From a virus, in IMG/VR virus record IMGVR_UViG_3300034152_000141, positions 1 to 36,984 of that record: 36,984 nucleotides of DNA; one strand, 5' to 3'. Each line of letters begins with the position of its first letter. Position 1 is the stretch's first letter. Positions 21,255-30,127 of this stretch are shown piece after piece. The notes below the pieces were generated by a model, which was not told the origin of the DNA, searched no databases, and saw only the letters and a program-made list of their open reading frames with translations. Both the position numbers and the translations under genes were made by a program.

Positions 21255-21708
21255 CGCTCAACCTCTTTCGATCCGGAGCGGCCAACGCGAGCAATTCCTT
21301 TTCGATGTGTTCGTTAGCGTATTTTTCAAGAAACATTTTCGGGGATATGTTTTCCGGAATCATTTTCCTCCATCCCTTCGGCACACCCCATACGAAATGA
21401 GGATTGAATCGGTCGCCCTCTTGATAGTAGCCGATCAGGTATCCCCGTGACCACACCTCGCCGTCCGAATCGGTATACAGCCGCGCCGATCGTTTCAATT
21501 CCTCGTCACTTTCGTATATTTCCTTGATGTCGGCAATCCCCGGTGCTTTGCCCCATCGCGTAGAAAACTGTTCAATTGTAATCTCGAACAGCCGATCAAG
21601 ATTCACGTCTTGCTTTTCAACCCATGATAGAATCATCAACCGAACCACGTCCGACCCGTATTTCCCATAATAGTCCTCGATTCTCTGAACAAACTCTGCC
21701 GATATCAT
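21244..21708 (-). CDS. Possible helicase-loader-like replication protein
   Basis: A 154-residue protein directly downstream of the initiator gene and coupled to it by ATGA at 21708. The N-terminal half (YYGKYGSDVVRLMILSWVEK, FEITIEQFSTRWGKAPGIAD) is helical, with a W...F...P...I pattern seen in G39P-like helicase loaders and their relatives. The C-terminal half has VWSRGYLIGYYQEGDRF. The assignment is mainly by position after an initiator; no ATPase motif is present, so a DnaC-type loader is excluded. Confidence 0.4.
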   Translation of the reverse strand: MISAEFVQRIEDYYGKYGSDVVRLMILSWVEKQDVNLDRLFEITIEQFSTRWGKAPGIADIKEIYESDEELKRSARLYTDSDGEVWSRGYLIGYYQEGDRFNPHFVWGVPKGWRKMIPENISPKMFLEKYANEHIEKELLALAAPDRKRLSDGN

Positions 21709-22472
21709 TTCCACAACCCCCGTATCCATTCGGCCTGTTCTGGCGTCAAAGCCTTGCGATGACCGTTTTCCATTTCCTCACGAACTCTCGAATATATCCC
21801 TTCGGAGTTTAGATTTTGAATCGTAAACGGTTGAGCTTTCCAGAACTTATCGTTCCCCTCAATCAGCGATGCGTATGTCGTCAAGAGTTCATTCGCGAAA
21901 CTCATCGGGTCATCTTGTTTCTCGATCTTTTTAATCAACATAGACAAATGCTTGCCTTGAATATTCCAGTTCCATTCTGATGAAATATCGATCCCTCTTC
22001 GTTCGTTGAAATACTTGAATGAATCTGTCAAAGCCTTTCGAAGTTCACCGTTCCCTGAAGGCGGCGCAGACACGCCGCTTGTTTCTTTGTTTCTCTCTTG
22101 TTTATCTCTCTTTGTTATTCTCTCTTCTAAATATTCTTGATACCCCTGTCCAATATTCTTGATACCCTGTCCAAAATATTTGATACCCCTATCAAGCGAC
22201 ATGACACGTTTCTCAACTTTTTTCCCATCACGGATGTATTGAATCTTGATATCGCCTTTTTCTTGCAATCCGAGTATTATTTGCGAAACTCTCTGTCTTG
22301 ATAGATGAAACATTTTTGCAAAATGACTGTTTGACGCGAAACACTCATCGATACTGTCGAGCGAAGCGATTTCACATAACATCAATTTTTCCATCCACGA
22401 AAGCCTTTCATCGAGCCACAAAGCCGCCGGAATCCACACACCAAGAAACGCCCGTTTTTTCTCTTTCGCCAC
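21705..22472 (-). CDS. Replication initiator with winged-helix N-terminus
   Basis: A 255-residue protein. Residues about 10-85 look like a winged helix (WIPAALWLDERLSWMEKLML, CFASNSHFAKMFHLSRQRVS, QIILGLQEKGDIKIQYIRDG), as in phage O/DnaD-type initiators. The middle is low-complexity and encodes direct repeats that look like iterons. The C-terminal third is helical. GTG 22472 follows GGGGGATGAC and is preferred over TTG 22484. Transcription comes from the promoter at 22582-22610 and must pass a terminator-like hairpin just before the start, so expression is probably attenuated. Confidence 0.72.
   Translation of the reverse strand: MAKEKKRAFLGVWIPAALWLDERLSWMEKLMLCEIASLDSIDECFASNSHFAKMFHLSRQRVSQIILGLQEKGDIKIQYIRDGKKVEKRVMSLDRGIKYFGQGIKNIGQGYQEYLEERITKRDKQERNKETSGVSAPPSGNGELRKALTDSFKYFNERRGIDISSEWNWNIQGKHLSMLIKKIEKQDDPMSFANELLTTYASLIEGNDKFWKAQPFTIQNLNSEGIYSRVREEMENGHRKALTPEQAEWIRGLWK
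22130..22193. repeat. Three iteron-like direct repeats inside the initiator gene (candidate origin)
   Basis: Three tandem copies with consensus AATATTCTTGATACCC followed by (C)TGTCC lie at 22130-22151, 22152-22172 and about 22175-22193; the third is less exact. Next to them (22080-22130) is a strongly pyrimidine-rich, AT-rich stretch suited to strand opening. Lambda-type phages place the origin inside the initiator gene in the same way. Origin function is inferred. Confidence 0.6.
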
Positions 22473-22482
22473 GTCATCCCCC

Positions 22483-22544
22483 AAAAATAAAAAACCCCTT
22501 CATCCGCTGTGTGGTTATCCGATAGATCGGAGCGGAGTCCGGGG
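22483..22544 (-). terminator. Terminator-like hairpin with U-tract in the leader of the initiator gene
   Basis: On the minus strand, CCCC (22544-22541) and TCCGCT (22536-22531) pair with AGCGGA (22508-22503) and GGGG (22498-22495), around a 4x4 internal loop. This is followed at once by TTTTTTATTTTT (22494-22483). The stem competes with the 13-bp inverted repeat described next, so it may be a switchable attenuator. Confidence 0.6.
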
Positions 22545-22576
22545 CTTCAATTTTCGTTCTCTTTCGGATAACCACA
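22510..22576. promoter_or_regulatory. 13-bp perfect inverted repeat (antiterminator or operator)
   Basis: TGTGGTTATCCGA at 22510-22522 and its exact complement at 22564-22576 flank 41 bases. The right arm lies at the expected first base of the transcript from the 22582 promoter. Pairing of the two arms in RNA would trap the 5' half of the terminator stem in its loop, so the two structures exclude each other. A smaller dyad TCCGATAGATCGGA (22518-22531) overlaps the left arm. A DNA operator is the alternative. Confidence 0.6.
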
Positions 22577-22581
22577 ATCAG

Positions 22582-22610
22582 ATCTTACCACTTCGGCCGA
22601 GATTAGTCAA
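22582..22610 (-). promoter_or_regulatory. Sigma70-like promoter for the replication genes
   Basis: Minus strand: -35 TTGACT (22610-22605), 17-base spacer, -10 TAAGAT (22587-22582). The spacer contains ATCTCGGC, shared with three other promoters of this genome. The -35 overlaps the stop codon of the upstream gene. The start of transcription would be near 22576. Confidence 0.7.
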
Positions 22611-22807
22611 CCGACCTTTTCCTCAATCTTGTGATAGATCTCGTAAAGTTTACTGACTTGCGCCGATGTGAGATCTCGTCCCTTCGAAAGTCTGTCATCG
22701 AGACTGTCTATGAAATCCATTTCCCATTCGCTCAGAAACTCGTCGTGACTGACGAGATAGCAAATCCGATTGTGCCATTTGTAACGAATCTCCGTCGTCA
22801 CCATCAT
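22607..22807 (-). CDS. Small helical protein, unknown
   Basis: A 66-residue protein (MMVTTEIRYKWHNRICYLVS...) with SEWEMDFIDSLDDRLSKGRD and a C-terminal helix (VSKLYEIYHKIEEKVG). Start ATG 22807 overlaps the upstream stop by ATGA; the longer frame to 23068 would overlap a real gene. No metal or catalytic motif. It is the last gene of the recombination block before the replication promoter. Confidence 0.6.
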   Translation of the reverse strand: MMVTTEIRYKWHNRICYLVSHDEFLSEWEMDFIDSLDDRLSKGRDLTSAQVSKLYEIYHKIEEKVG

Positions 22808-23127
22808 CGCCACCCCCGATCTGGATTGTTCGTCTGACGGCAAATCTCTTTGTTCTCCATGAGCATTTCCTCGAACCGTTCGGCCCGCTGGAAATATATC
22901 CGTTTGAAATTGGGATATTGCATATGCCACGTATGATTGACGCCGACGAGATTGAACAGCGAATGGATGAACCTCGGGAATCTTTGCCGGTTCGATTTCG
23001 TGTTGTGTAGCCGGTGATGTAGTTCCGTGATCGGAGCCTCTTTGCCGAATGACGCCGCGATCGCACACCGACCGCTCTGTTTCATCAGGATGTATCTCAT
23101 TTTCGGCTCATAGTTTGGGATACTCAT
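22804..23127 (-). CDS. HNH-like endonuclease fold protein
   Basis: A 107-residue protein with ELHHRLHNTKSNRQRFP (His37, His38, His41) and LFNLVGVNHTWHMQYP (Asn64, His65, His68). A paired HH...N...H arrangement with a preceding Cys (CAIAASFG) resembles degenerate HNH/recombination endonuclease proteins common in phages. Zinc-knuckle Cys pairs are missing, so it may bind DNA without cutting. The leader element GGAGGTGCGG sits just before ATG 23127. Confidence 0.55.
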   Translation of the reverse strand: MSIPNYEPKMRYILMKQSGRCAIAASFGKEAPITELHHRLHNTKSNRQRFPRFIHSLFNLVGVNHTWHMQYPNFKRIYFQRAERFEEMLMENKEICRQTNNPDRGWR

Positions 23128-23129
23128 TT

Positions 23130-23139
23130 CCGCACCTCC
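23130..23139 (-). promoter_or_regulatory. Conserved leader element GGAGGTGCGG, copy 1
   Basis: Contains the ribosome binding site for ATG 23127 and continues with a fixed GCGG beyond the usual Shine-Dalgarno bases. One of seven identical 10-base copies in the early region. Unlike the copies near 28 kb, it lies in the short space after a small membrane-protein gene, with no strong hairpin. Confidence 0.85.
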
Positions 23140-23140
23140 G

Positions 23141-23284
23141 CTATATGAATCTGATCGGCTTCCCTTTCTTGTCGTAGAACGCGTCGCGTTTTCCCGGCCA
23201 CAACGAGACGATGAGCAAAGCTATCGGTCCGACGGTCGCGAGCCCAATCATGAAAACGACGCCGACGGTTTCAATCCACGACAT
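23141..23284 (-). CDS. Small single-helix membrane protein
   Basis: A 47-residue protein beginning MSWIETVGVVFMIG, with a membrane helix to about residue 29 (LATVGPIALLIVSLW) and a basic tail (KRDAFYDKKGKPIRFI). ATG 23284 overlaps the end of the DUF5131 gene by 14 bases. It fills an otherwise empty interval exactly and ends just before the leader element of the next gene. Function unknown. Confidence 0.6.
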   Translation of the reverse strand: MSWIETVGVVFMIGLATVGPIALLIVSLWPGKRDAFYDKKGKPIRFI

Positions 23285-23999
23285 GACGATTCCATTTTCC
23301 TGAATCTCTCGCGATTTCCTCTCTCATTATCGCGCCAACCAACCGACTGAGATTTGATTTAATCTTAACCCTCCACCTTTGGCGCAACACGAAGATCAAC
23401 TGTTCAATTTCCCTCGGCTTGGGCTCGGGCAATTTATGACCTTTGCTGTCCGCGCCGATATTGATCCACGTCGGAGAACACATCTCGATCAACTCGACGA
23501 GTAGTTCGAGATCGAACTCAAGGATCGGCTCAATCGTGAGCATCGTCTCGTAGTCAGACTCGGCGAACATGTTCATCCACGTCGCCCGAACGCCCGGGAC
23601 CGGTGCCATTCCCATGACACCCGCGATCGGCCGGTTCGTTTCGATCGTCGTTCCGATCGTGACGAGTTTGGGCAATGCGTGTCGGTGTTGCCACATCCGC
23701 CGGACGTTCTCCGACTGAAACAGATACCGATTGTCCGGACTCCGGCGGCACCGCGCGAGAACCCGGGAGATCCATTCCGACGGAAGCCCGTTCGCGAACA
23801 TGTCGATCGATGATCCGACGAATATGAAATTGCCTTCCCCGAGACGAGCTTTCATCTCCGTTTCATCAAGCCTCGGGTCACCCGCCGGGAATTGTTTCAT
23901 ATAGCAATACAGGCAATCGTGAGGACACTTCCCTTTGATCGGATTCCATGTGTGCGACACGAATGAGTACATGTTGCCTTTCGCTTCTCTCAACGGCAT
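23271..23999 (-). CDS. DUF5131 / phage Gp37-Gp68-like protein (radical-SAM-like Cys motif)
   Basis: A 242-residue protein with HTWNPIKGKCPHDCLYCYMK at residues 16-35. Cys25, Cys29 and Cys32 form a CxxxCxxC motif as in radical-SAM enzymes. FVGSSIDMFANGLPSEWISR and WINIGADSKGHKLPEP are further marks of the DUF5131 family, common in phages. Its substrate is not known to me. GGAGGAATGAT precedes ATG 23999, inside the end of the upstream gene. It sits in the recombination block. Confidence 0.85.
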   Translation of the reverse strand: MPLREAKGNMYSFVSHTWNPIKGKCPHDCLYCYMKQFPAGDPRLDETEMKARLGEGNFIFVGSSIDMFANGLPSEWISRVLARCRRSPDNRYLFQSENVRRMWQHRHALPKLVTIGTTIETNRPIAGVMGMAPVPGVRATWMNMFAESDYETMLTIEPILEFDLELLVELIEMCSPTWINIGADSKGHKLPEPKPREIEQLIFVLRQRWRVKIKSNLSRLVGAIMREEIARDSGKWNRHVVD

Positions 24000-24000
24000 A

Positions 24001-24453
24001 TCATTCCTCCAAATCTTCGATTTCGATCTGCCCCTCGTAGCAATAGAGTTTCATCTGTTTGATGAACTCGTACATTTCCCGAGTCGAATATTCGACGAGA
24101 TCCACGATGAACCAAACGTCGCCGTTCTGGTAGGGTTGAACATATTTCCCTTTTCGCGCAACCGGCACCGATCCACCGATGAACGAGATTCCGAAATCGA
24201 CCATCAATTGATCGAGCTTGATCGTCTTCGGAACTCCGTCCGCTTTGGCGATTCGATCGATAATAAGCATCGCGTATCCGAGATGCCGATCCGAACACCT
24301 TTCCTCGACGTTCTTTTCCATCGCCACACAAAAAATCTCCCCGTCCGCGATCGACGACAAGAACTCCCGGAGATACATCTTGCCATTGCCGTTGACGGGG
24401 AGAATTGAACCATTCGATTTTTTCATCGCACGGAACGAGATCCGATCATTCAT
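24001..24453 (-). CDS. Protein of the recombination block, unknown
   Basis: A 150-residue protein, MNDRISFRAMKKSNGS at the start, with CVAMEKNVEERCSDRHLGYA, LMVDFGISFIGGSVPVARKG and a helical end (EMYEFIKQMKLYCYEGQIEI). ATG 24453 shares TGATG with the nuclease stop; GTG 24456 is an alternative. Coupling to the RecB-like nuclease suggests a role in DNA recombination or protection, but no motif supports a specific function. Confidence 0.6.
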   Translation of the reverse strand: MNDRISFRAMKKSNGSILPVNGNGKMYLREFLSSIADGEIFCVAMEKNVEERCSDRHLGYAMLIIDRIAKADGVPKTIKLDQLMVDFGISFIGGSVPVARKGKYVQPYQNGDVWFIVDLVEYSTREMYEFIKQMKLYCYEGQIEIEDLEE

Positions 24454-25118
24454 CACATTTTCAAATCGCGTTTGACCTCGTATGCCTCGCGTAGAACTTT
24501 GAACAGTTTAACAAGCTTGATCTGACGCTCGGGCTCGACCTCTTTTTCGAGAAAGCCCTCATCCTCGGATCTCGGGATGTTGAGGATCGCCACGCGGTTG
24601 ATCTTGTAGCCGTTCTCACGACCGATCTCGGCGTATGCCGACGCTTGCATTTCCATTTCCGGATAGATCCCAGAACCGGTTTTCAGATCGATCAACCAGA
24701 CTTCACCGTTGATCTCGCAGATAATGTCCGACGTTCCTCCGACCCTCATTTTCTCCGAGACCAACTTGACCTCATTTCCCATCGGCGTGATCTCTTTCCC
24801 CTCACGCCATTTCAGATACGAAAGGAATCCGTTCTCGGCGAGACTCACCTGTTTTGGGGAATACTCCGACAGATCCGGTTCAACGTTTTGGAAATCGGCC
24901 TCGACCATCTCATGAGCCGCGTGACCGATCTCCGCGAGAACGTCCACGTATTCCTTGATCTTGATTCCCTGTAGACCGATCTTGTTGGCCCAATATTTCA
25001 ACGCCGGTTTGTCGAGAATCCCTGTGATTGTGGTCACACCCGGAACCCACGTTCCGTCGGCGAGATAATACCGAGTGTGTTGACGTGTTTTCTTGAACTT
25101 TTCAATCTTTGCCGCCAT
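24453..25118 (-). CDS. RecB/Cas4-like PD-(D/E)XK nuclease (phage exonuclease)
   Basis: A 221-residue protein with a full PD-(D/E)XK signature: His66/His69 in AEIGHAAHEM, Glu116 in MGNEVKLVS, Asp131 in RVGGTSDIICE, Asp144-x-Lys146 in VWLIDLKTGSG and Gln158 in EMEMQASAYAE. This is the RecB-type layout with the trailing Gln. It lacks the Cys cluster of true Cas4. Being next to a putative annealing protein it is likely the exonuclease of a phage recombination pair. ATG 25118 overlaps the upstream gene by 17 bases. Confidence 0.85.
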   Translation of the reverse strand: MAAKIEKFKKTRQHTRYYLADGTWVPGVTTITGILDKPALKYWANKIGLQGIKIKEYVDVLAEIGHAAHEMVEADFQNVEPDLSEYSPKQVSLAENGFLSYLKWREGKEITPMGNEVKLVSEKMRVGGTSDIICEINGEVWLIDLKTGSGIYPEMEMQASAYAEIGRENGYKINRVAILNIPRSEDEGFLEKEVEPERQIKLVKLFKVLREAYEVKRDLKM

Positions 25119-26082
25119 TCGTCGCCCCCTCTTTCGCCTCTTTCTCACGTTTCGCTTTGAGTTTCTTGAACTTGTTGATTGTCGGCACGATCCCGCCCTT
25201 GCCGTTGACCACTTCCCGCTCATCGATCCATTTCATCATCTCGTCATATTCGTGATCGGATTCGATGAGATCCTCGGCGTTCATGTCCTTGACGATCTGA
25301 CGAGCTTCGTCCTTGTACTCATCGAGAGATTTCGCGGGCACCGAAGGCGCGTCCTCTACGGTTGCTTGAACAGTTCCGTTTTCGGTCTCGACGTTTGTGT
25401 TCGCTTCGACGAGATCCTCATCCTGAGTGAACACGTCCGACGCGGATGTCGCTGAAATGATCGCATCGACGAATCCCCGTTTCTTTGCCATTTTCTTGAC
25501 TGTGTTGTACGAGTCCGCGATGTTCGGATTCTCGATCTTTTCCCCGGTCCCTTCAGCCCGGAAGATCATCCATTGGCCTTCGGGTGTTTTTTTCGGGTAG
25601 TGACCCACGCCGAGCATCGCCCGGGCCTTGCCCGGATCTGTCTTGCGGATCTTCCAATACCCTTGAGGAACGGGATTCCCGGTGTTGATCTCCTGGCGAT
25701 CTTCCCGGAATCGATATTTCGATTCCATCGTAGAACAATTCCCGACGCCTTGACCGAGAAACTTCCCGGTTTCCATGTGATACAGATCGACGATGATTTC
25801 GTATTCCCGATGGCCGTCAGCGAAATCTTCGCGAGCGATCGTGTATTTTGGTGTGATCATGAATGTGGTCCCGAGAATCTCTGCCCCGGCCTTGAACAGA
25901 AAATCCTTTTCGACTCCCGGCACCTTGCCATAATGAACGCCCTCGACCATCACGCGTTCCATTATCGCGTGAATCTTTTCGACCCTCGCGACAATATCAG
26001 CGACGCTCATTTCCATCTGAACCGCCGGTGTTTTTAGCGGTTCCGCCTTAGCAATTGCGGATGTGTTTTCATGTTCGGACAA
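25102..26082 (-). CDS. Putative single-strand annealing/recombination protein
   Basis: A 326-residue protein. The core has VEGVHYGKVPGVEKDFLFKA, LYHMETGKFLGQGVGNCSTM, and NTVKKMAKKRGFVDAIISAT then DVFTQDED. This KMAxKR-x-x-x-DA ... FTQD pattern marks a phage family often beside exonucleases; the KR-x-x-x-D-A part recalls Rad52-like annealing proteins. The C-terminus is a charged helical tail. The start is TTG 26082 after GGAGGTGCGGAA. It is the first gene after the 26153-26179 terminator and has its own promoter. Annealing activity is inferred, chiefly from context. Confidence 0.5.
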   Translation of the reverse strand: MSEHENTSAIAKAEPLKTPAVQMEMSVADIVARVEKIHAIMERVMVEGVHYGKVPGVEKDFLFKAGAEILGTTFMITPKYTIAREDFADGHREYEIIVDLYHMETGKFLGQGVGNCSTMESKYRFREDRQEINTGNPVPQGYWKIRKTDPGKARAMLGVGHYPKKTPEGQWMIFRAEGTGEKIENPNIADSYNTVKKMAKKRGFVDAIISATSASDVFTQDEDLVEANTNVETENGTVQATVEDAPSVPAKSLDEYKDEARQIVKDMNAEDLIESDHEYDEMMKWIDEREVVNGKGGIVPTINKFKKLKAKREKEAKEGATNGGKD

Positions 26083-26084
26083 TT

Positions 26085-26094
26085 CCGCACCTCC
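26085..26094 (-). promoter_or_regulatory. Conserved leader element GGAGGTGCGG, copy 2
   Basis: Identical 10-base element before a TTG start (26082). Upstream is GAGATATCAAATCTTT, so the ATATC motif seen before other copies is also present. The strong ribosome binding site and nearby terminator and promoter decide this TTG start over other candidates. Confidence 0.85.
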
Positions 26095-26111
26095 AAAGAT
26101 TTGATATCTCA

Positions 26112-26140
26112 AGTGTAGCCGAGATGAGAGATAATATCAA
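26112..26140 (-). promoter_or_regulatory. Sigma70-like promoter for the recombination genes
   Basis: Minus strand: -35 TTGATA (26140-26135), 17-base spacer, -10 TACACT (26117-26112). The spacer ends in ATCTCGGC directly before the -10. It lies just after a strong terminator, so the recombination block is a separate transcript. Confidence 0.75.
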
Positions 26141-26152
26141 GCGTCCGGACAC

Positions 26153-26179
26153 AAAAAAACCCCGGGTTTTACCCCGGGG
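26153..26179 (-). terminator. Rho-independent terminator
   Basis: On the minus strand, CCCCGGG pairs with CCCGGGG (26179-26173 with 26166-26160; 7 bp, 6-base loop) and is followed by seven Ts (26159-26153). It closes the accessory gene cluster transcribed from 28.85 kb. The 20 bases upstream hold nothing else recognisable. Confidence 0.9.
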
Positions 26180-26198
26180 CCTTTTCCTTCAAGCCGGT

Positions 26199-26414
26199 TT
26201 AGCGGGTTTCCGGTCCGTCAACACCATGTCGCGATCGATACAAGATCAACGCTGAATATTGGGCAATGTCGTATCCATCACCATAATTGATCGGCGTCGC
26301 CTGATATTTGACATCAACGACCCTAAATCCCGATCGCTCGAACCCATTGACTCGATTCGATACGTTGTTACTGAAACAGTCAGCATCCGTTTCAACGATG
26401 AACGCTATTTGCAT
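26199..26414 (-). CDS. Small accessory protein, unknown
   Basis: A 71-residue protein (MQIAFIVETDADCFSNNVSN...) with GFERSGFRVVDVKYQATP and QYSALILYRS, an alpha/beta layout like small phage proteins of unknown use. ATG 26414 follows GGAGGTGCGGA. Its start overlaps the end of the upstream gene by 23 bases, so the leader element lies inside that gene's coding sequence. It is the last gene before the terminator. Confidence 0.6.
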   Translation of the reverse strand: MQIAFIVETDADCFSNNVSNRVNGFERSGFRVVDVKYQATPINYGDGYDIAQYSALILYRSRHGVDGPETR

Positions 26415-26589
26415 TCCGCACCTCCGGTTCATAGGTGACCTCGCGTGTTTGCCGAATCACGGCGATCTGATGATCAGGATATTTCGCCCTGAGTCGATCC
26501 GCACATGATCGTGCGGATCTCTCGTTGTCGTATTCGACCCAATCGTAGCCATCCCAATCGATGATGAACGTGACCATTTTCGTGTACAC
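26392..26589 (-). CDS. Small accessory protein, unknown
   Basis: A 65-residue protein with MVTFIIDWDGYDWVEYDNER and a helix (SARSCADRLRAKYPDHQIAV), a small alpha/beta layout. GTG 26589 follows GGGGG at 8 bases; ATG 26577 lacks a ribosome binding site. Unlike its neighbours it has no GGAGGTGCGG leader and appears coupled to the upstream gene. Function unknown. Confidence 0.6.
   Translation of the reverse strand: MYTKMVTFIIDWDGYDWVEYDNERSARSCADRLRAKYPDHQIAVIRQTREVTYEPEVRNANSVHR
26416..26425 (-). promoter_or_regulatory. Conserved leader element GGAGGTGCGG, copy 3
   Basis: Copy lying inside the upstream coding sequence, where it encodes part of EPEVRN. Conservation of all ten bases despite the coding constraint argues that the element itself is under selection. 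Confidence 0.85.
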
Positions 26590-26592
26590 GAC

Positions 26593-26847
26593 TCAATCCC
26601 CCCGTTGATCGATGAGTTCCGTCGTTTTCGATTGATCGGCGCCCTTCGCCCACTTCCATCTGATACACCCGAAATCATCGACGAACACATTCTCCGCGCC
26701 GTCCGGCATGATGAACAGCCGAAACGGACCTTTCAAACTGCCGCCTGCTTTGCGACAATTGTCCCGCGCCTCTTTGATCGTGTCGCCCTTGCCGAAATAG
26801 TTCGGCACAACATAGAGCAACCGATAAAAGGACTTCGTTTTTCCCAT
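26593..26847 (-). CDS. Small accessory protein, unknown
   Basis: An 84-residue protein, MGKTKSFYRLLYVVPNYFGK at the start, then EARDNCRKAGGSLKGPFRLF and VFVDDFGCIRWKWAKGADQS. It has an alpha/beta layout with a conserved-looking Trp-rich strand. ATG 26847 follows GGAGGTGCGGAAGA. The preceding 56 bases hold a GC-rich hairpin after the DUF932 stop. Function unknown. Confidence 0.6.
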   Translation of the reverse strand: MGKTKSFYRLLYVVPNYFGKGDTIKEARDNCRKAGGSLKGPFRLFIMPDGAENVFVDDFGCIRWKWAKGADQSKTTELIDQRGD

Positions 26848-26851
26848 TCTT

Positions 26852-26861
26852 CCGCACCTCC
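26852..26861 (-). promoter_or_regulatory. Conserved leader element GGAGGTGCGG, copy 4
   Basis: Ten identical bases before ATG 26847, with four bases between element and start codon. A hairpin CCGGG/CCCGG lies between the DUF932 stop and the element. The sequence CATATT just upstream is a variant of the ATATC motif. Confidence 0.85.
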
Positions 26862-26903
26862 AATATGGAATATAGACCGGGATCTCTCGACCCCGGCCGG
26901 ACT

Positions 26904-27704
26904 CTAACGGGTGAACACGTTCGCGATTGCGTTGTTCATTTTTTCCGTCACTGTCCCGGCTCTCGCTCGGTGTGTGGCGATGAACGTGCAAACGTTCCAA
27001 AGATCATACGCTGAAAAGCCTTGCGTTGCTGTTACCCGCTCGATCTCCCCGTCCTCGTTCCGCTCAACGACGAGCCCGTAATCCTCGGTCGCTTTCTCAA
27101 GAACCATGTTCTTGTAGCGATCGGTGACATAAGCCTCGGCGAGAAACGCCGTGAGATAGGGGTTGAAATCTTCGTTGACGAGCTTCGCGTATAACAGCTT
27201 GCCCTCTTCGACGAGCTTCGCGAGATTCTCGACAACCTTTTCGCCGATTTGTTTGAGATCCACGTTTTCGAACTTGTGGATATACCTCATACCGGCCGCG
27301 ATCTTGAAAGCAACCGCACCGTTTGAACAGATCTTCCGCCACCATCCGAACCGCCATTTCAACGCTGATTTCGCATCGTAAGAATTGAACACGTTGAGTG
27401 TCGGATCGAACTCGTCGCCGTTCGGCTTGAAACGCCACTCAGGAAAACGAATAGTCGTTTTCATCTTCGCGCCGTCATTCCAAATCACCGACTCGGCTTT
27501 GGTTTTCGTTCCGATGGTCCCGAGAACACGATCAACGAACTCGACGACTCGCTTGTGTTCAACGAGTTGATATTCATGACCGACATACCCGAGATCGGCA
27601 CCGGTATCCGGACGCCATATAACGTCGCGGCCCGTGTACTTTCCATCCGACCGATACAACCCTTCCCTCAGAACGGGGAAATCCAATACAGCATTATCTG
27701 ACAT
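26904..27704 (-). CDS. DUF932 family protein (phage/plasmid-like)
   Basis: A 266-residue protein, MSDNAVLDFPVLREG at the start. Family marks are TGADLGYVGHEYQLVEHKRV, VFNSYDAKSALKWRFGWWRK, CSNGAVAFKIAAGMRYIHKF and a C-terminal YDLWNVCTFIATHRARAG. DUF932 proteins are widespread on phages and plasmids, and some act in DNA repair or recombination; the activity is not settled. Start ATG 27704 follows GGAGGTGCGGC. It is the largest gene of the accessory cluster. Confidence 0.85.
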   Translation of the reverse strand: MSDNAVLDFPVLREGLYRSDGKYTGRDVIWRPDTGADLGYVGHEYQLVEHKRVVEFVDRVLGTIGTKTKAESVIWNDGAKMKTTIRFPEWRFKPNGDEFDPTLNVFNSYDAKSALKWRFGWWRKICSNGAVAFKIAAGMRYIHKFENVDLKQIGEKVVENLAKLVEEGKLLYAKLVNEDFNPYLTAFLAEAYVTDRYKNMVLEKATEDYGLVVERNEDGEIERVTATQGFSAYDLWNVCTFIATHRARAGTVTEKMNNAIANVFTR

Positions 27705-27705
27705 G

Positions 27706-27715
27706 CCGCACCTCC
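27706..27715 (-). promoter_or_regulatory. Conserved leader element GGAGGTGCGG, copy 5
   Basis: Identical element one base before ATG 27704. Upstream is a GC-rich hairpin (GCGAGTCGCTCGC) followed by CATATC and a run of nine Ts, the same order of parts as at copy 6. Confidence 0.85.
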
Positions 27716-27759
27716 AAAAAAAAAGATATGGCGAGCGACTCGCGCCGCCCGCCGGACTC

Positions 27760-28116
27760 TTATCCAAAGTTCTGTTGAATCGTCCGCATGTAGCGTTCAG
27801 ATTCGTTGACCTCGGACTTGCCGATCTCACGAAAACCGAAGTGATCAACCTGATAGTAGACACCCTCGGGATCTTTAATCACGTCGCCGACCATCATCGA
27901 AGTGTGTCGAAGCCCGAGAGCTTCGATCAATCCGCGAGCTTCACCGCGCGGGCTCCACACTTCGCCTTGCATCTTGAAAAACACGTTTTCAAGACTGTCG
28001 CCGTCAATCACTGTGACCTGAACGTGAGTCTTTCGAGATTCGATTTCCTCAACAGTCAAATTGTCGTTGAGCATAAAATCGAAATCCGGCTTGCTGTAAT
28101 AAACGGAATACTTCAT
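27760..28116 (-). CDS. YodL-like small accessory protein
   Basis: A 118-residue protein, MKYSVYYSKPDFDFM at the start. The run GLRHTSMMVGDVIKDPEGVY then YQVDHFGFREI has the S-M-x-V-G-D-V-I ... G-F-x-x-I order of YodL-like domains in phage and mobile-element proteins; their role is unknown. ATG 28116 follows GGAGGTGCGGAA. A longer frame to 28227 would cross the hairpin and leader element and is rejected. Confidence 0.6.
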   Translation of the reverse strand: MKYSVYYSKPDFDFMLNDNLTVEEIESRKTHVQVTVIDGDSLENVFFKMQGEVWSPRGEARGLIEALGLRHTSMMVGDVIKDPEGVYYQVDHFGFREIGKSEVNESERYMRTIQQNFG

Positions 28117-28118
28117 TT

Positions 28119-28128
28119 CCGCACCTCC
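28119..28128 (-). promoter_or_regulatory. Conserved leader element GGAGGTGCGG, copy 6
   Basis: Identical element before ATG 28116. Upstream is an 8-bp stem with a TTCG tetraloop (GCCGGGGC/GCTCCGGC, one G-T pair), then CATATC and five Ts. This is the clearest example of the hairpin-ATATC-leader arrangement. Confidence 0.85.
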
Positions 28129-28169
28129 GAAAAAGTGATATGCCGGAGCCGAAGCCCCGGCCGACTCGA

Positions 28170-28400
28170 TCATCCAAACTGGACGATACCGGCGAATCCG
28201 AGTTTCGCCTTGTTCCATCCGTGGCACCGCTTGACGGTTTTCCCATCGACAACGGCTTGGAGATCGAAGTAAGAAACATCTTCGAAATCACCATCGATCA
28301 GCCTCATGCCTTTGGAAATCTTGTCATAGTGGTCAACCGACGAGACTGTCGTGTGAATACCGCCACAAGATGAACAGACTTGTTGAATCGAATCCTTCAC
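28170..28400 (-). CDS. Small Cys-containing accessory protein (start disrupted?)
   Basis: A 76-residue protein from GTG 28400 (MKDSIQQVCSSCGGIHTTVS...), with CxxC and a later Cys in KRCHGWNKAK. The GGAGGTGCGG leader lies 50 bases upstream and starts a different frame (ATG 28449) that stops after seven codons. The coding look of this frame continues upstream (CSGDLVVEIDV) to just after that short stop. A +1 shift at the stop would join the two. So either the leader makes a short upstream ORF, or the gene has a frameshift. Function unknown. Confidence 0.5.
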   Translation of the reverse strand: MKDSIQQVCSSCGGIHTTVSSVDHYDKISKGMRLIDGDFEDVSYFDLQAVVDGKTVKRCHGWNKAKLGFAGIVQFG

Positions 28401-28425
28401 ATCGATCTCAACAACCAGATCGCCA

Positions 28426-28449
28426 CTACATGCTACTCATAGTATACAT
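28426..28449 (-). CDS. Seven-codon upstream ORF after leader copy 7
   Basis: ATG 28449, two bases after GGAGGTGCGG, reads MYTMSSM and stops at TAG 28426. All other leader copies start full genes. This may be a regulatory short ORF or the broken front of the 28400 gene. Confidence 0.35.
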   Translation of the reverse strand: MYTMSSM

Positions 28450-28450
28450 G

Positions 28451-28460
28451 CCGCACCTCC
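28451..28460 (-). promoter_or_regulatory. Conserved leader element GGAGGTGCGG, copy 7
   Basis: Identical element one base before ATG 28449. Upstream are hairpins CGGGAT/ATCCCG and CCGG-rich bases, then CAAATC. The preceding stretch 28461-28620 contains no convincing gene; a small CCGACG/CGTCGG hairpin lies near 28540. Confidence 0.85.
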
Positions 28461-28620
28461 GAAAAGATTTGAGAAACCCCGGCCGGGATAATGAATCCCG
28501 ATCTTGTTCTTGACCGTAGTTCGTGCCGGAGGATTTGAGTCACCGACGAGCGTCGGATTTATTAGCAGATTGTGTGAGAAGTTTTCAACGAGTCTCAGAA
28601 TTGGAGGATTCCGATTCCCG

Positions 28621-28782
28621 TCATTTCGGCAACCGGCGAATGCCCGTCACCTGATTGTCCGTCTCTGAAAGATTGAACAACCCGCCTACCCCGCTGAAAA
28701 ACAAGATGATCACTTTGCGGATGAATTGGATTGTTGCTTTGGCTTCTCTGGCCGACGCCTCAAGGCTGATCCCTTCCGCCAA
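28621..28782 (-). CDS. Possible small membrane protein, TTG start
   Basis: A 53-residue frame with an amphipathic start (ISLEASAREAKATIQFIRK) and a hydrophobic segment (VIILFFSGVGGLFNL), ending before a possible ATGA junction. It fills part of the long leader after the 28.85-kb promoter. No ribosome binding site precedes TTG 28782, and no ATG is available. It may be real, a remnant, or chance. Confidence 0.3.
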   Translation of the reverse strand: MAEGISLEASAREAKATIQFIRKVIILFFSGVGGLFNLSETDNQVTGIRRLPK

Positions 28783-28792
28783 AATCTATGTC

Positions 28793-28831
28793 AAAAACCG
28801 TGTTGATTGAATTGTTTAATTCAACCAACAC
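28793..28831 (-). terminator. 5'-terminal hairpin with U-tract (attenuator candidate)
   Basis: A 14-bp stem with one G-U pair and a 4-base loop spans 28831-28800 on the minus strand, followed by GG and five Ts (28797-28793). It begins at the expected first transcribed base of the 28837 promoter. It could stop transcription early or protect the 5' end of the RNA. Confidence 0.55.
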
Positions 28832-28836
28832 TTTAG

Positions 28837-28865
28837 ATTATAGTGCGGCCGAGATAAAATATCAA
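28837..28865 (-). promoter_or_regulatory. Strong sigma70-like early promoter
   Basis: Minus strand: -35 TTGATA (28865-28860), 17-base spacer, -10 TATAAT (28842-28837), the closest match to consensus in the window. The spacer contains ATCTCGGC. It drives the accessory cluster to the terminator at 26.15 kb. Its long leader (28450-28836) has a 5' hairpin and at most one doubtful small gene. Confidence 0.85.
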
Positions 28866-28891
28866 GGTTTTTTGGGAAAAAAATGAACTAT

Positions 28892-29059
28892 TTATTTTTT
28901 GTTTTGGGCCTGTTTTTTCCGCCGATAATTCTCTCGCATCTGTTCACGACGCTTCTCTCTATTTGCCTCATAACGTGCGGCGGCGTCGGCCTTTTCTTTT
29001 TCCGAATGACGTTCGTATTTCCGCCTTCGAGCTTCCGGGTCATGTTTTCGTTTCGCCAC
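28892..29059 (-). CDS. Small highly charged basic protein
   Basis: A 55-residue protein from GTG 29059 after GGGGG: MAKRKHDPEARRRKY, then EKEKADAAARYEANREK and a Lys/Arg end (ENYRRKKQAQNKK). It is probably one long charged helix. It could bind nucleic acid, but there is no specific motif. The opposite strand has an open frame too, but codon use and the ribosome binding site favour this one. Confidence 0.6.
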   Translation of the reverse strand: MAKRKHDPEARRRKYERHSEKEKADAAARYEANREKRREQMRENYRRKKQAQNKK

Positions 29060-29157
29060 GCCCGACCCCCTGTTTTAAACCGCCGCTGTCGTACAATTTT
29101 TTGCGTTTATCCCCTGTAATTTTAGCCTCGGGAAAAAAACTGGTATAGTTTCACATT

Positions 29158-29394
29158 TCATCCCGAATCTGCCCCGTGATAGGCAATTTTCGACGAATAC
29201 TCTCTCATTGTCAATCCGCCATATTTCAGGATCTCGACGAACGGTTTCGCCAATTTGAGCCGCTTCGTCTTGCTCAATTTACATTTCGTCTCGTCGCCCT
29301 CGACGTACGACATGTCGGGATATCCTGAATACAGCGGACAATTATTGACAGAACAAACCGTGAAATTAGGACATTCGAACATCGCCCCGGTCAT
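29158..29394 (-). CDS. Small Cys-rich early protein, unknown
   Basis: A 78-residue protein (MTGAMFECPNFTVCSVNNCP...) with Cys8, Cys14 and Cys19 plus a later Cys in ETKCKLSKT, enough for a zinc site. The C-terminal half is helical (RLKLAKPFVEILKYGGLTM). ATG 29394 overlaps the regulator stop by ATGA, so the two are made together and it may act with the regulator. The gap 29060-29157 holds a weak promoter-like TAAAAT at 29119-29124. Confidence 0.6.
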   Translation of the reverse strand: MTGAMFECPNFTVCSVNNCPLYSGYPDMSYVEGDETKCKLSKTKRLKLAKPFVEILKYGGLTMREYSSKIAYHGADSG

Positions 29395-29537
29395 TTCCCA
29401 TACCTCCGGCAATATTGTAAAGCCGCGAATCTCAGAAACGCCGCAAGCGACAAACCTCTTTTTTCGGCCGTCTCGCTGATCACCCTATGATGCTCGACTG
29501 TCAAGGTAACCGAGCATTTGATTTTTTTCTTGTCCAT
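29391..29537 (-). CDS. Ribbon-helix-helix transcription regulator (candidate early repressor)
   Basis: A 48-residue protein: MDKKKIKCSVTLTVEHHRVI, then SETAEKRGLSLAAFLRFAAL and a short basic end. A basic strand followed by two helices with the G-x-S turn is the ribbon-helix-helix plan; such proteins bind DNA as dimers. ATG 29537 lies 7 bases after a TAAAAT -10, so its RNA would start at or next to the start codon (leaderless), as for lambda cI. Its promoter carries the ATCTCGGC motif shared by other early promoters, suggesting it controls itself and them. Confidence 0.7.
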   Translation of the reverse strand: MDKKKIKCSVTLTVEHHRVISETAEKRGLSLAAFLRFAALQYCRRYGK

Positions 29538-29544
29538 GACATAG

Positions 29545-29573
29545 ATTTTATCTCGGCTATGAGGAAATAGCAA
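29545..29573 (-). promoter_or_regulatory. Sigma70-like promoter for the RHH regulator
   Basis: Minus strand: -35 TTGCTA (29573-29568), 17-base spacer, -10 TAAAAT (29550-29545). GCCGAGAT, the complement of ATCTCGGC, overlaps the end of the spacer and the -10, in the reverse orientation to the other three promoters. The -35 lies in the last codons of the late coiled-coil gene. Confidence 0.75.
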
Positions 29574-29991
29574 GCCCGATAAGAACAAAAATCGTGACCG
29601 CTTCGACCACGATTACGATCGTTTTAATTGTGTCAATCGTTTGCATCTTGTTCAGATCCGCTTTCAATCCGGTCGAGAGTTTCGATAATTCTTCGGTTGA
29701 TCTCTTCGATTCTTCGAGTAGAATCCCGCGCTCCGTCAACTGCTGTTTCTGCTGTTCGAGTTGATTCCTCAATTCGGACAACGCTCTCGTTTGCCCGTTC
29801 AAGAGATTCAACTGTTCGTCGATGGTTTTCTTTTTCTCGTCCGAGAGATTCCGTAAGTAAAATATTTCGTTGTTCAACGCCGTCGACTGTTTCCTCAAGC
29901 TCAACAATTCGTCGTCGATCGTCCTGATGTATTCGTTCAAGTTCGAGATTTCGCTCTGCTGTTCTAACGCTAATGTCCTCAAGAGTAGCAA
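29557..29991 (-). CDS. Coiled-coil protein with C-terminal membrane anchor (overlapping frame B)
   Basis: A 144-residue protein from TTG 29991 after GGGGAAGCGAA; the frame is open to ATG 30123. It is a long Leu-zipper-like coiled coil (LRTLALEQQSEISNLNEYIR, SALNNEIFYLRNLSDEK, LRNQLEQQKQQLTERGILLE) with a final membrane helix (TIVIVVEAVTIFVLIGLAIS). Codons end mostly in G or C like the rest of the genome. It overlaps frame A (29633-30127) over 359 bases, shifted +1. Lysis (spanin-like) or tail-end role possible; no lipobox is visible. Confidence 0.6.
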   Translation of the reverse strand: MLLLRTLALEQQSEISNLNEYIRTIDDELLSLRKQSTALNNEIFYLRNLSDEKKKTIDEQLNLLNGQTRALSELRNQLEQQKQQLTERGILLEESKRSTEELSKLSTGLKADLNKMQTIDTIKTIVIVVEAVTIFVLIGLAISS

Positions 29992-30127
29992 TTCGCTTCC
30001 CCATAGTTTCCTTTGCGGAACTATTGAAAAGATCAAAACGAAAATGACCGGCAACACCGGCCACGGCCGCAAGAGCGAGAGCCGCGACAAACCCGATCGC
30101 CACAAACAAGATTTTTGAACCATTCAA
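29633..30127 (-). CDS. N-terminally anchored coiled-coil protein (overlapping frame A, spanin-like)
   Basis: A 164-residue protein from TTG 30127, which overlaps the upstream stop by TTGA. A clear N-terminal membrane helix (ILFVAIGFVAALALAAVAGV) is followed by a coiled coil rich in Glu and Arg (RNLELERIHQDDRRRIVELE, SLERANESVVRIEEST). Size and layout match an inner-membrane spanin of the Rz type. Codons in the second half are richer in A/T endings and CGA than neighbours, so frame B may be the main one there. Whether both frames are used is open. Confidence 0.55.
   Translation of the reverse strand: MNGSKILFVAIGFVAALALAAVAGVAGHFRFDLFNSSAKETMGKRIATLEDISVRTAERNLELERIHQDDRRRIVELEETVDGVEQRNILLTESLGREKENHRRTVESLERANESVVRIEESTRTAETAVDGARDSTRRIEEINRRIIETLDRIESGSEQDAND

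Follow-up and report, generated by a model that had tools for sequence, protein, structure and literature searches.

Arc, the repressor of phage P22, is a 53-residue ribbon-helix-helix (RHH) protein with its operator in a sigma-70 promoter. The Arc operator is 21 bp long, consists of two half-sites and belongs to the ant locus rather than to four early units. The RHH proteins F55 of SSV1 and SvtR of SIRV1 bind both their own promoters and other promoters of the virus (PMC9608457, PMC5569661). A search of the open full-text literature on ribbon-helix-helix proteins, bacteriophages and early promoters returned papers on archaeal viruses only, and little has been published on RHH repressors of bacteriophages that control several early promoters. 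Here we analyse four putative early phage promoters that have the 8-bp word ATCTCGGC in common and that are plausibly a new example of this known type of viral gene switch.

Early region and its four promoters

The window, i.e. the whole stretch of DNA analysed, is a 36,984-base virus record of an uncultured tailed phage, and nearly all of its genes are carried by the minus strand (Table 1). No match to a tyrosine integrase, a serine recombinase or an HTH_3-type repressor was found in the window, the record being possibly incomplete. All four promoters of the original prediction were recovered as sigma-70-like sites, predicted from consensus alone, on the minus strand, and the −35/−10 spacer is exactly 17 bp in each. 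As assigned by position, each promoter starts one successive early block, and the entire early region therefore sits behind ATCTCGGC promoters. The P2 unit is followed by a strong terminator-like hairpin (26179–26160) with a minus-strand T run.

Table 1. Coordinates of window features discussed in the text (P1–P4, predicted promoters).
Feature	Position	Strand	Remarks
Terminase, portal, capsid, tail genes	≤17.1 kb		
Early/replication block	about 29.5–20 kb		
More structural-type genes	>29.6 kb		
P1 promoter	29545..29573	−	TTGCTA-17-TAAAAT; RHH gene
P2 promoter	28837..28865	−	TTGATA-17-TATAAT
P3 promoter	26112..26140	−	TTGATA-17-TACACT
P4 promoter	22582..22610	−	TTGACT-17-TAAGAT
ATCTCGGC in P1	29550..29557	+	reversed relative to promoter, touches −10
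ATCTCGGC in P2	28848..28855	−	
ATCTCGGC in P3	26118..26125	−	touches −10
ATCTCGGC in P4	22596..22603	−	inside pseudo-palindrome ATCTCGGCCGAAGT
48-residue RHH protein, candidate repressor	29394..29537	−	stop codon 29391–29393
P1 unit			RHH gene and small proteins at 29158 and 28892
P2 unit	28830 to about 26199		DUF932 protein and small proteins
P3 unit	26105 to about 22607		phrog_10048 protein, PD-(D/E)XK exonuclease, DUF5131 protein, others
P4 unit	from about 22575		leader RNA, replication initiation protein (21705–22484), genes after
GGAGGTGCGG	23130–23139, 26085–26094, 26416–26425, 26852–26861, 27706–27715, 28119–28128, 28451–28460	−	putative ribosome-binding site

P1 overlaps the final codons of a possible upstream reading frame (29557–30123). 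Two long overlapping minus-strand frames of 188 and 164 aa are present at 29557–30127, both membrane/coiled-coil-like and with equal codon scores (0.186 and 0.185); they are possibly overprinted spanin-like genes, and the longer frame ends in a stop codon that overlaps the operator-like word of P1. A plus-strand promoter-like site at 28832–28860, which overlaps P2 and reuses ATCTCGGC, was not counted since the frame behind it (28883–29119) is without coding signal.

Several other RNA and translation signals were observed in the early region, where an Rfam scan detected no known RNA family. The element GGAGGTGCGG occurs in seven exact copies, each directly before an early gene start, and is a putative phage-specific extended ribosome-binding site; upstream of several copies there is a hairpin rich in G+C together with a stretch rich in AT. 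Behind the copy at 28451–28460 the ATG opens only a seven-codon frame (28398–28451, minus), and a well-scoring frame at 28170–28400 has no ATG nearby. A frameshift, a sequence error or an unusual start are possible causes of this anomaly. The minus-strand leader at 22470–22576, which precedes the replication protein gene, carries a 17-nt inverted repeat beginning at the predicted +1. Folding of the growing transcript predicts that the hairpin of this repeat (−23.9 kcal/mol) gives way to a stem of −30.4 kcal/mol that resembles a terminator and precedes TTTTTT, and the leader could therefore be an attenuator. At 28800–28831 (minus), a 14-pair hairpin (z −5.1) begins at the predicted P2 +1 and is followed by GGTTTTTG; it may be a 5′-terminal stabiliser or an attenuator.

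The predicted 48-residue ribbon-helix-helix protein as candidate regulator

The RHH gene opens the first early unit and is located directly behind a ATCTCGGC site, a layout of autoregulation. The AlphaFold model of its product contains helices at residues 14–26 and 31–46 (mean pLDDT 84). The N-terminal strand is unassigned in the monomer model, as expected, because the ribbon needs a dimer. In a Foldseek search Arc, CopG and NikA came on top with probability 1.00 but E-values of only 0.03–0.1, which are unsurprising for so short a chain, and VIA-align gave a Z of 6.8 over 45 residues with CopG. The NikA-like Pfam profile PF21983 matched with an E-value of 4.5e-5 and 23.9 bits, under its cut-off of 27, the RHH_1 profile scored 13.7 against a cut-off of 20.5, and a PDB sequence search produced no meaningful match. 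Together, the predicted structure, the structural comparisons and the sub-cut-off profile match make the RHH-type fold proposed earlier for this protein well supported as a prediction. In Pfam and PHROGs scans of the other early proteins no further repressor candidate was found; the replication protein gave a weak match to HTH_36.

The P1 −10 hexamer TAAAAT occupies positions 29550–29545 and the RHH ATG is at 29537, so that the predicted +1 falls at the ATG or within 1–2 bases of it. Since the predicted transcript starts at about the ATG, the RHH mRNA is probably leaderless, as is known for phage lambda cI transcribed from PRM. The RHH stop codon overlaps the start of the following gene (AAATGA), suggesting coupled translation of the two.

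We lean towards ATCTCGGC being the core operator of one phage repressor, most likely the RHH protein, that controls the four early units. After infection, host RNA polymerase would start these units. The RHH protein would be made from its probably leaderless mRNA and dimerise, and the dimer would put its two-stranded ribbon into ATCTCGGC within the −35/−10 spacer, shutting out the polymerase at P1 and at the other three promoters whatever the register or orientation of the word. The outcome would be negative autoregulation and a coordinated, timed early shut-off or, should the phage be temperate, maintained repression. The position of the word would have to be fixed if it served an activator or were part of the core promoter, and variable sites therefore fit exclusion by a repressor. 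Of the regulon originally predicted, the cis-element in four promoters and the RHH-type fold have held up, while binding of the RHH protein to ATCTCGGC, repression and its timing are what we infer from sequence.

A fuller description can be offered tentatively: a phage without a recognisable integrase or CI-type repressor that keeps a four-unit early region under one 48-residue RHH autorepressor, which acts through one non-palindromic box of 8 bp, whose orientation and register in the spacers vary, and is made from a leaderless mRNA. If true, one 48-residue protein, one 8-bp box and four promoters would make up an early-gene switch that is complete, very small and open to direct testing.

It is rather unlikely, in our judgement, that ATCTCGGC is a real operator bound by some other factor, be it a regulator of the host or a different small protein from the early region of the phage. 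Whatever binds it, the cis-element has firm statistical backing (see below), and a single non-palindromic box is atypical for an RHH dimer; that each promoter has one exact box, while RHH repressors usually need at least two adjacent ones, is a point against the RHH protein. Several small early proteins are without assigned function, and the 55-residue basic protein encoded at 28892–29059, or an unrecognised one, could be such a binder. On the other hand, the RHH gene is the sole recognisable small regulator, lies behind a site and heads the early region, and an operator of the host should also turn up in other phages that infect it.

Register and frequency of the shared word

As originally predicted, ATCTCGGC is present in P1–P4 and is reversed in the promoter of the RHH gene. 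Measured from where the −10 hexamer starts, the word lies at a distance of 5 bp in P1 (reversed), 11 bp in P2, 6 bp in P3 and 14 bp in P4. Longer matches were found for pairs of promoters: P1 and P2 have the 13-bp GCCGAGATAAAAT in common, which runs one way with respect to the promoter in P1 and the other way in P2, and 10 bp are common to P1 and P3 and, likewise, to P2 and P4. In P3, ATCTCGGC is preceded at 7 bp by a second, imperfect box (ATCTCTC). This is the only clear second box; those of P1, P2 and P4 are weak (5/7 matches) and inconsistently spaced. A decayed fifth copy had been proposed at about 29119–29134 (CCCGAGG followed by TAAAAT), but the word is mismatched there and the hexamer 17 bp upstream is TATACC, with 3/6 matches, so this copy was left out of the count. 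Reading the ATCTCGGC site as a dyad was rejected, as a palindrome is approached in P4 only. An alternative-sigma or extended-promoter element was likewise rejected because ATCTCGGC is without fixed register. The variable register and orientation fit the operator of a repressor that acts sterically rather than an element of the core promoter.

Register also bears on a common origin of the sites. P1–P4 could be copies of one ancestral promoter cassette, the 8-mer being leftover identity with no regulatory role; P2 and P3 do have CTTGATATT in common at −35, and further intergenic elements, among them the GGAGGTGCGG ribosome-binding site, are repeated in this phage. We consider this improbable, since cassette copies would keep register, whereas no two copies of ATCTCGGC have the same distance to the −10 and the P1 copy is reversed, although the −35/−10 spacing is constant.

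In agreement with the original prediction, the 8-mer is not common genome-wide. Seven copies are present in the window against 2.7 expected, a slight over-representation, with 3 of 100 shuffles reaching seven. The prediction had listed one further exact copy besides the promoters; there are three (6691, 15108 and 24625), all in coding sequence. These three are about the chance number (2.7), and the excess is all in promoters. When the spacers of all 32 promoter-like loci of the window were shuffled, any 8-mer was found in four loci in 14 of 2000 shuffles. Of 1000 dinucleotide shuffles of the intergenic regions, 9 had some 8-mer present in four regions, and ATCTCGGC itself never occurred in more than two regions across the 1000. 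Shuffling the spacers of P1–P4 alone gave no 8-mer in all four (0/3000), a result that depends on the choice of these promoters and is not to be read by itself, whereas the 32-locus test is unconditioned. Promoter-like sites with ATCTCGGC numbered 5 of 33 in the window, two of them overlapping on opposite strands, and 0 of 518 in 947 kb of other virus DNA, mostly from major-capsid relatives. Chance, i.e. four good promoters coincidentally having one 8-mer in common, is very improbable even though the word is slightly over-represented anyway and the promoters were picked once it had been noticed, given that only 0.7% (promoter-like loci) or about 1% (intergenic regions) of shuffles match the observation and that the four loci coincide exactly with early unit starts. 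We conclude that a cis-element common to all four early promoters is well supported. If its proposed role is true, raw sequence can reveal unknown phage operators through words common to promoter spacers.

Relatives and known systems

Searches of viral contigs with the RHH, phrog_10048, terminase, major capsid and DUF932 proteins, and of genome contigs and of phages with the RHH protein, returned only distant relatives; two promoter-plus-operator patterns had no match in viral contigs. The only RHH sequence relative found (51% over 41 residues) is encoded by another phage (L003). Its RHH promoter is without ATCTCGGC and has instead a different 12-bp inverted repeat, TTGCCTGTTGAC...GTCAACAGGCAA (804–853), which overlaps a TTGACA −35 element and is likely the operator of the L003 protein. 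Because the recognition strand of the L003 protein also differs, this phage neither supports nor refutes the link between the RHH protein and ATCTCGGC. In the window protein, alignment to CopG would place K7, S9 and T11 on the recognition strand. Capsid relatives reached up to 59% identity (67% over a partial match), and the RHH protein was found by search in none of the 26 capsid-relative records. The best capsid relative (G001, L088) is G+C-rich and has kept a phrog_10048 homologue; neither a promoter with ATCTCGGC nor an RHH gene could be recognised in it.

CopG of pMV158 and NikA of R64, with an RHH unit of about 45 residues, are the nearest fold and profile matches; they differ in being plasmid copy-control and mobilisation proteins, and the window protein scores under the NikA and RHH_1 cut-offs. 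Arc matches the window protein in fold, with a sequence identity of only about 15%. Omega of pSM19035, also an RHH protein, recognises 7-bp non-palindromic boxes in either orientation that overlap several promoters, including its own (PMC9499535). It differs in using arrays of 7–10 contiguous boxes, since a single 7-bp box is bound weakly, and is also a partition protein (PMC9499535).

Among viral systems, SvtR is a small RHH protein that represses its own gene and binds further promoters of the virus; it is archaeal, and its sites are longer imperfect inverted repeats, with the highest affinity at a structural gene (PMC5569661). F55, a virus RHH repressor of 55 residues, acts on a short non-palindromic word found in several early promoters and in that of its own gene, the word being 11 nt long and repeated in tandem by archaeal TATA/BRE promoters of a temperate archaeal virus (PMC5569661). 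The boxes of the window, in contrast, are single, 8 bp long and situated within the spacers of bacterial sigma-70 promoters, and the likeness to F55 is one of arrangement. One exact box per promoter was found, compared with at least two adjacent boxes in operators of the F55/SvtR type. As the profiles stay below curated cut-offs and multiple boxes are lacking, membership in this class of regulons is only probable, and the trans-acting link is one that we infer. As in F55- and SvtR-type systems, one word is present in several early promoters and in that of the regulator itself, and the window system is probably a virus-encoded RHH autorepressor regulon comparable to those of SSV1 F55, SIRV1 SvtR and P22 Arc.
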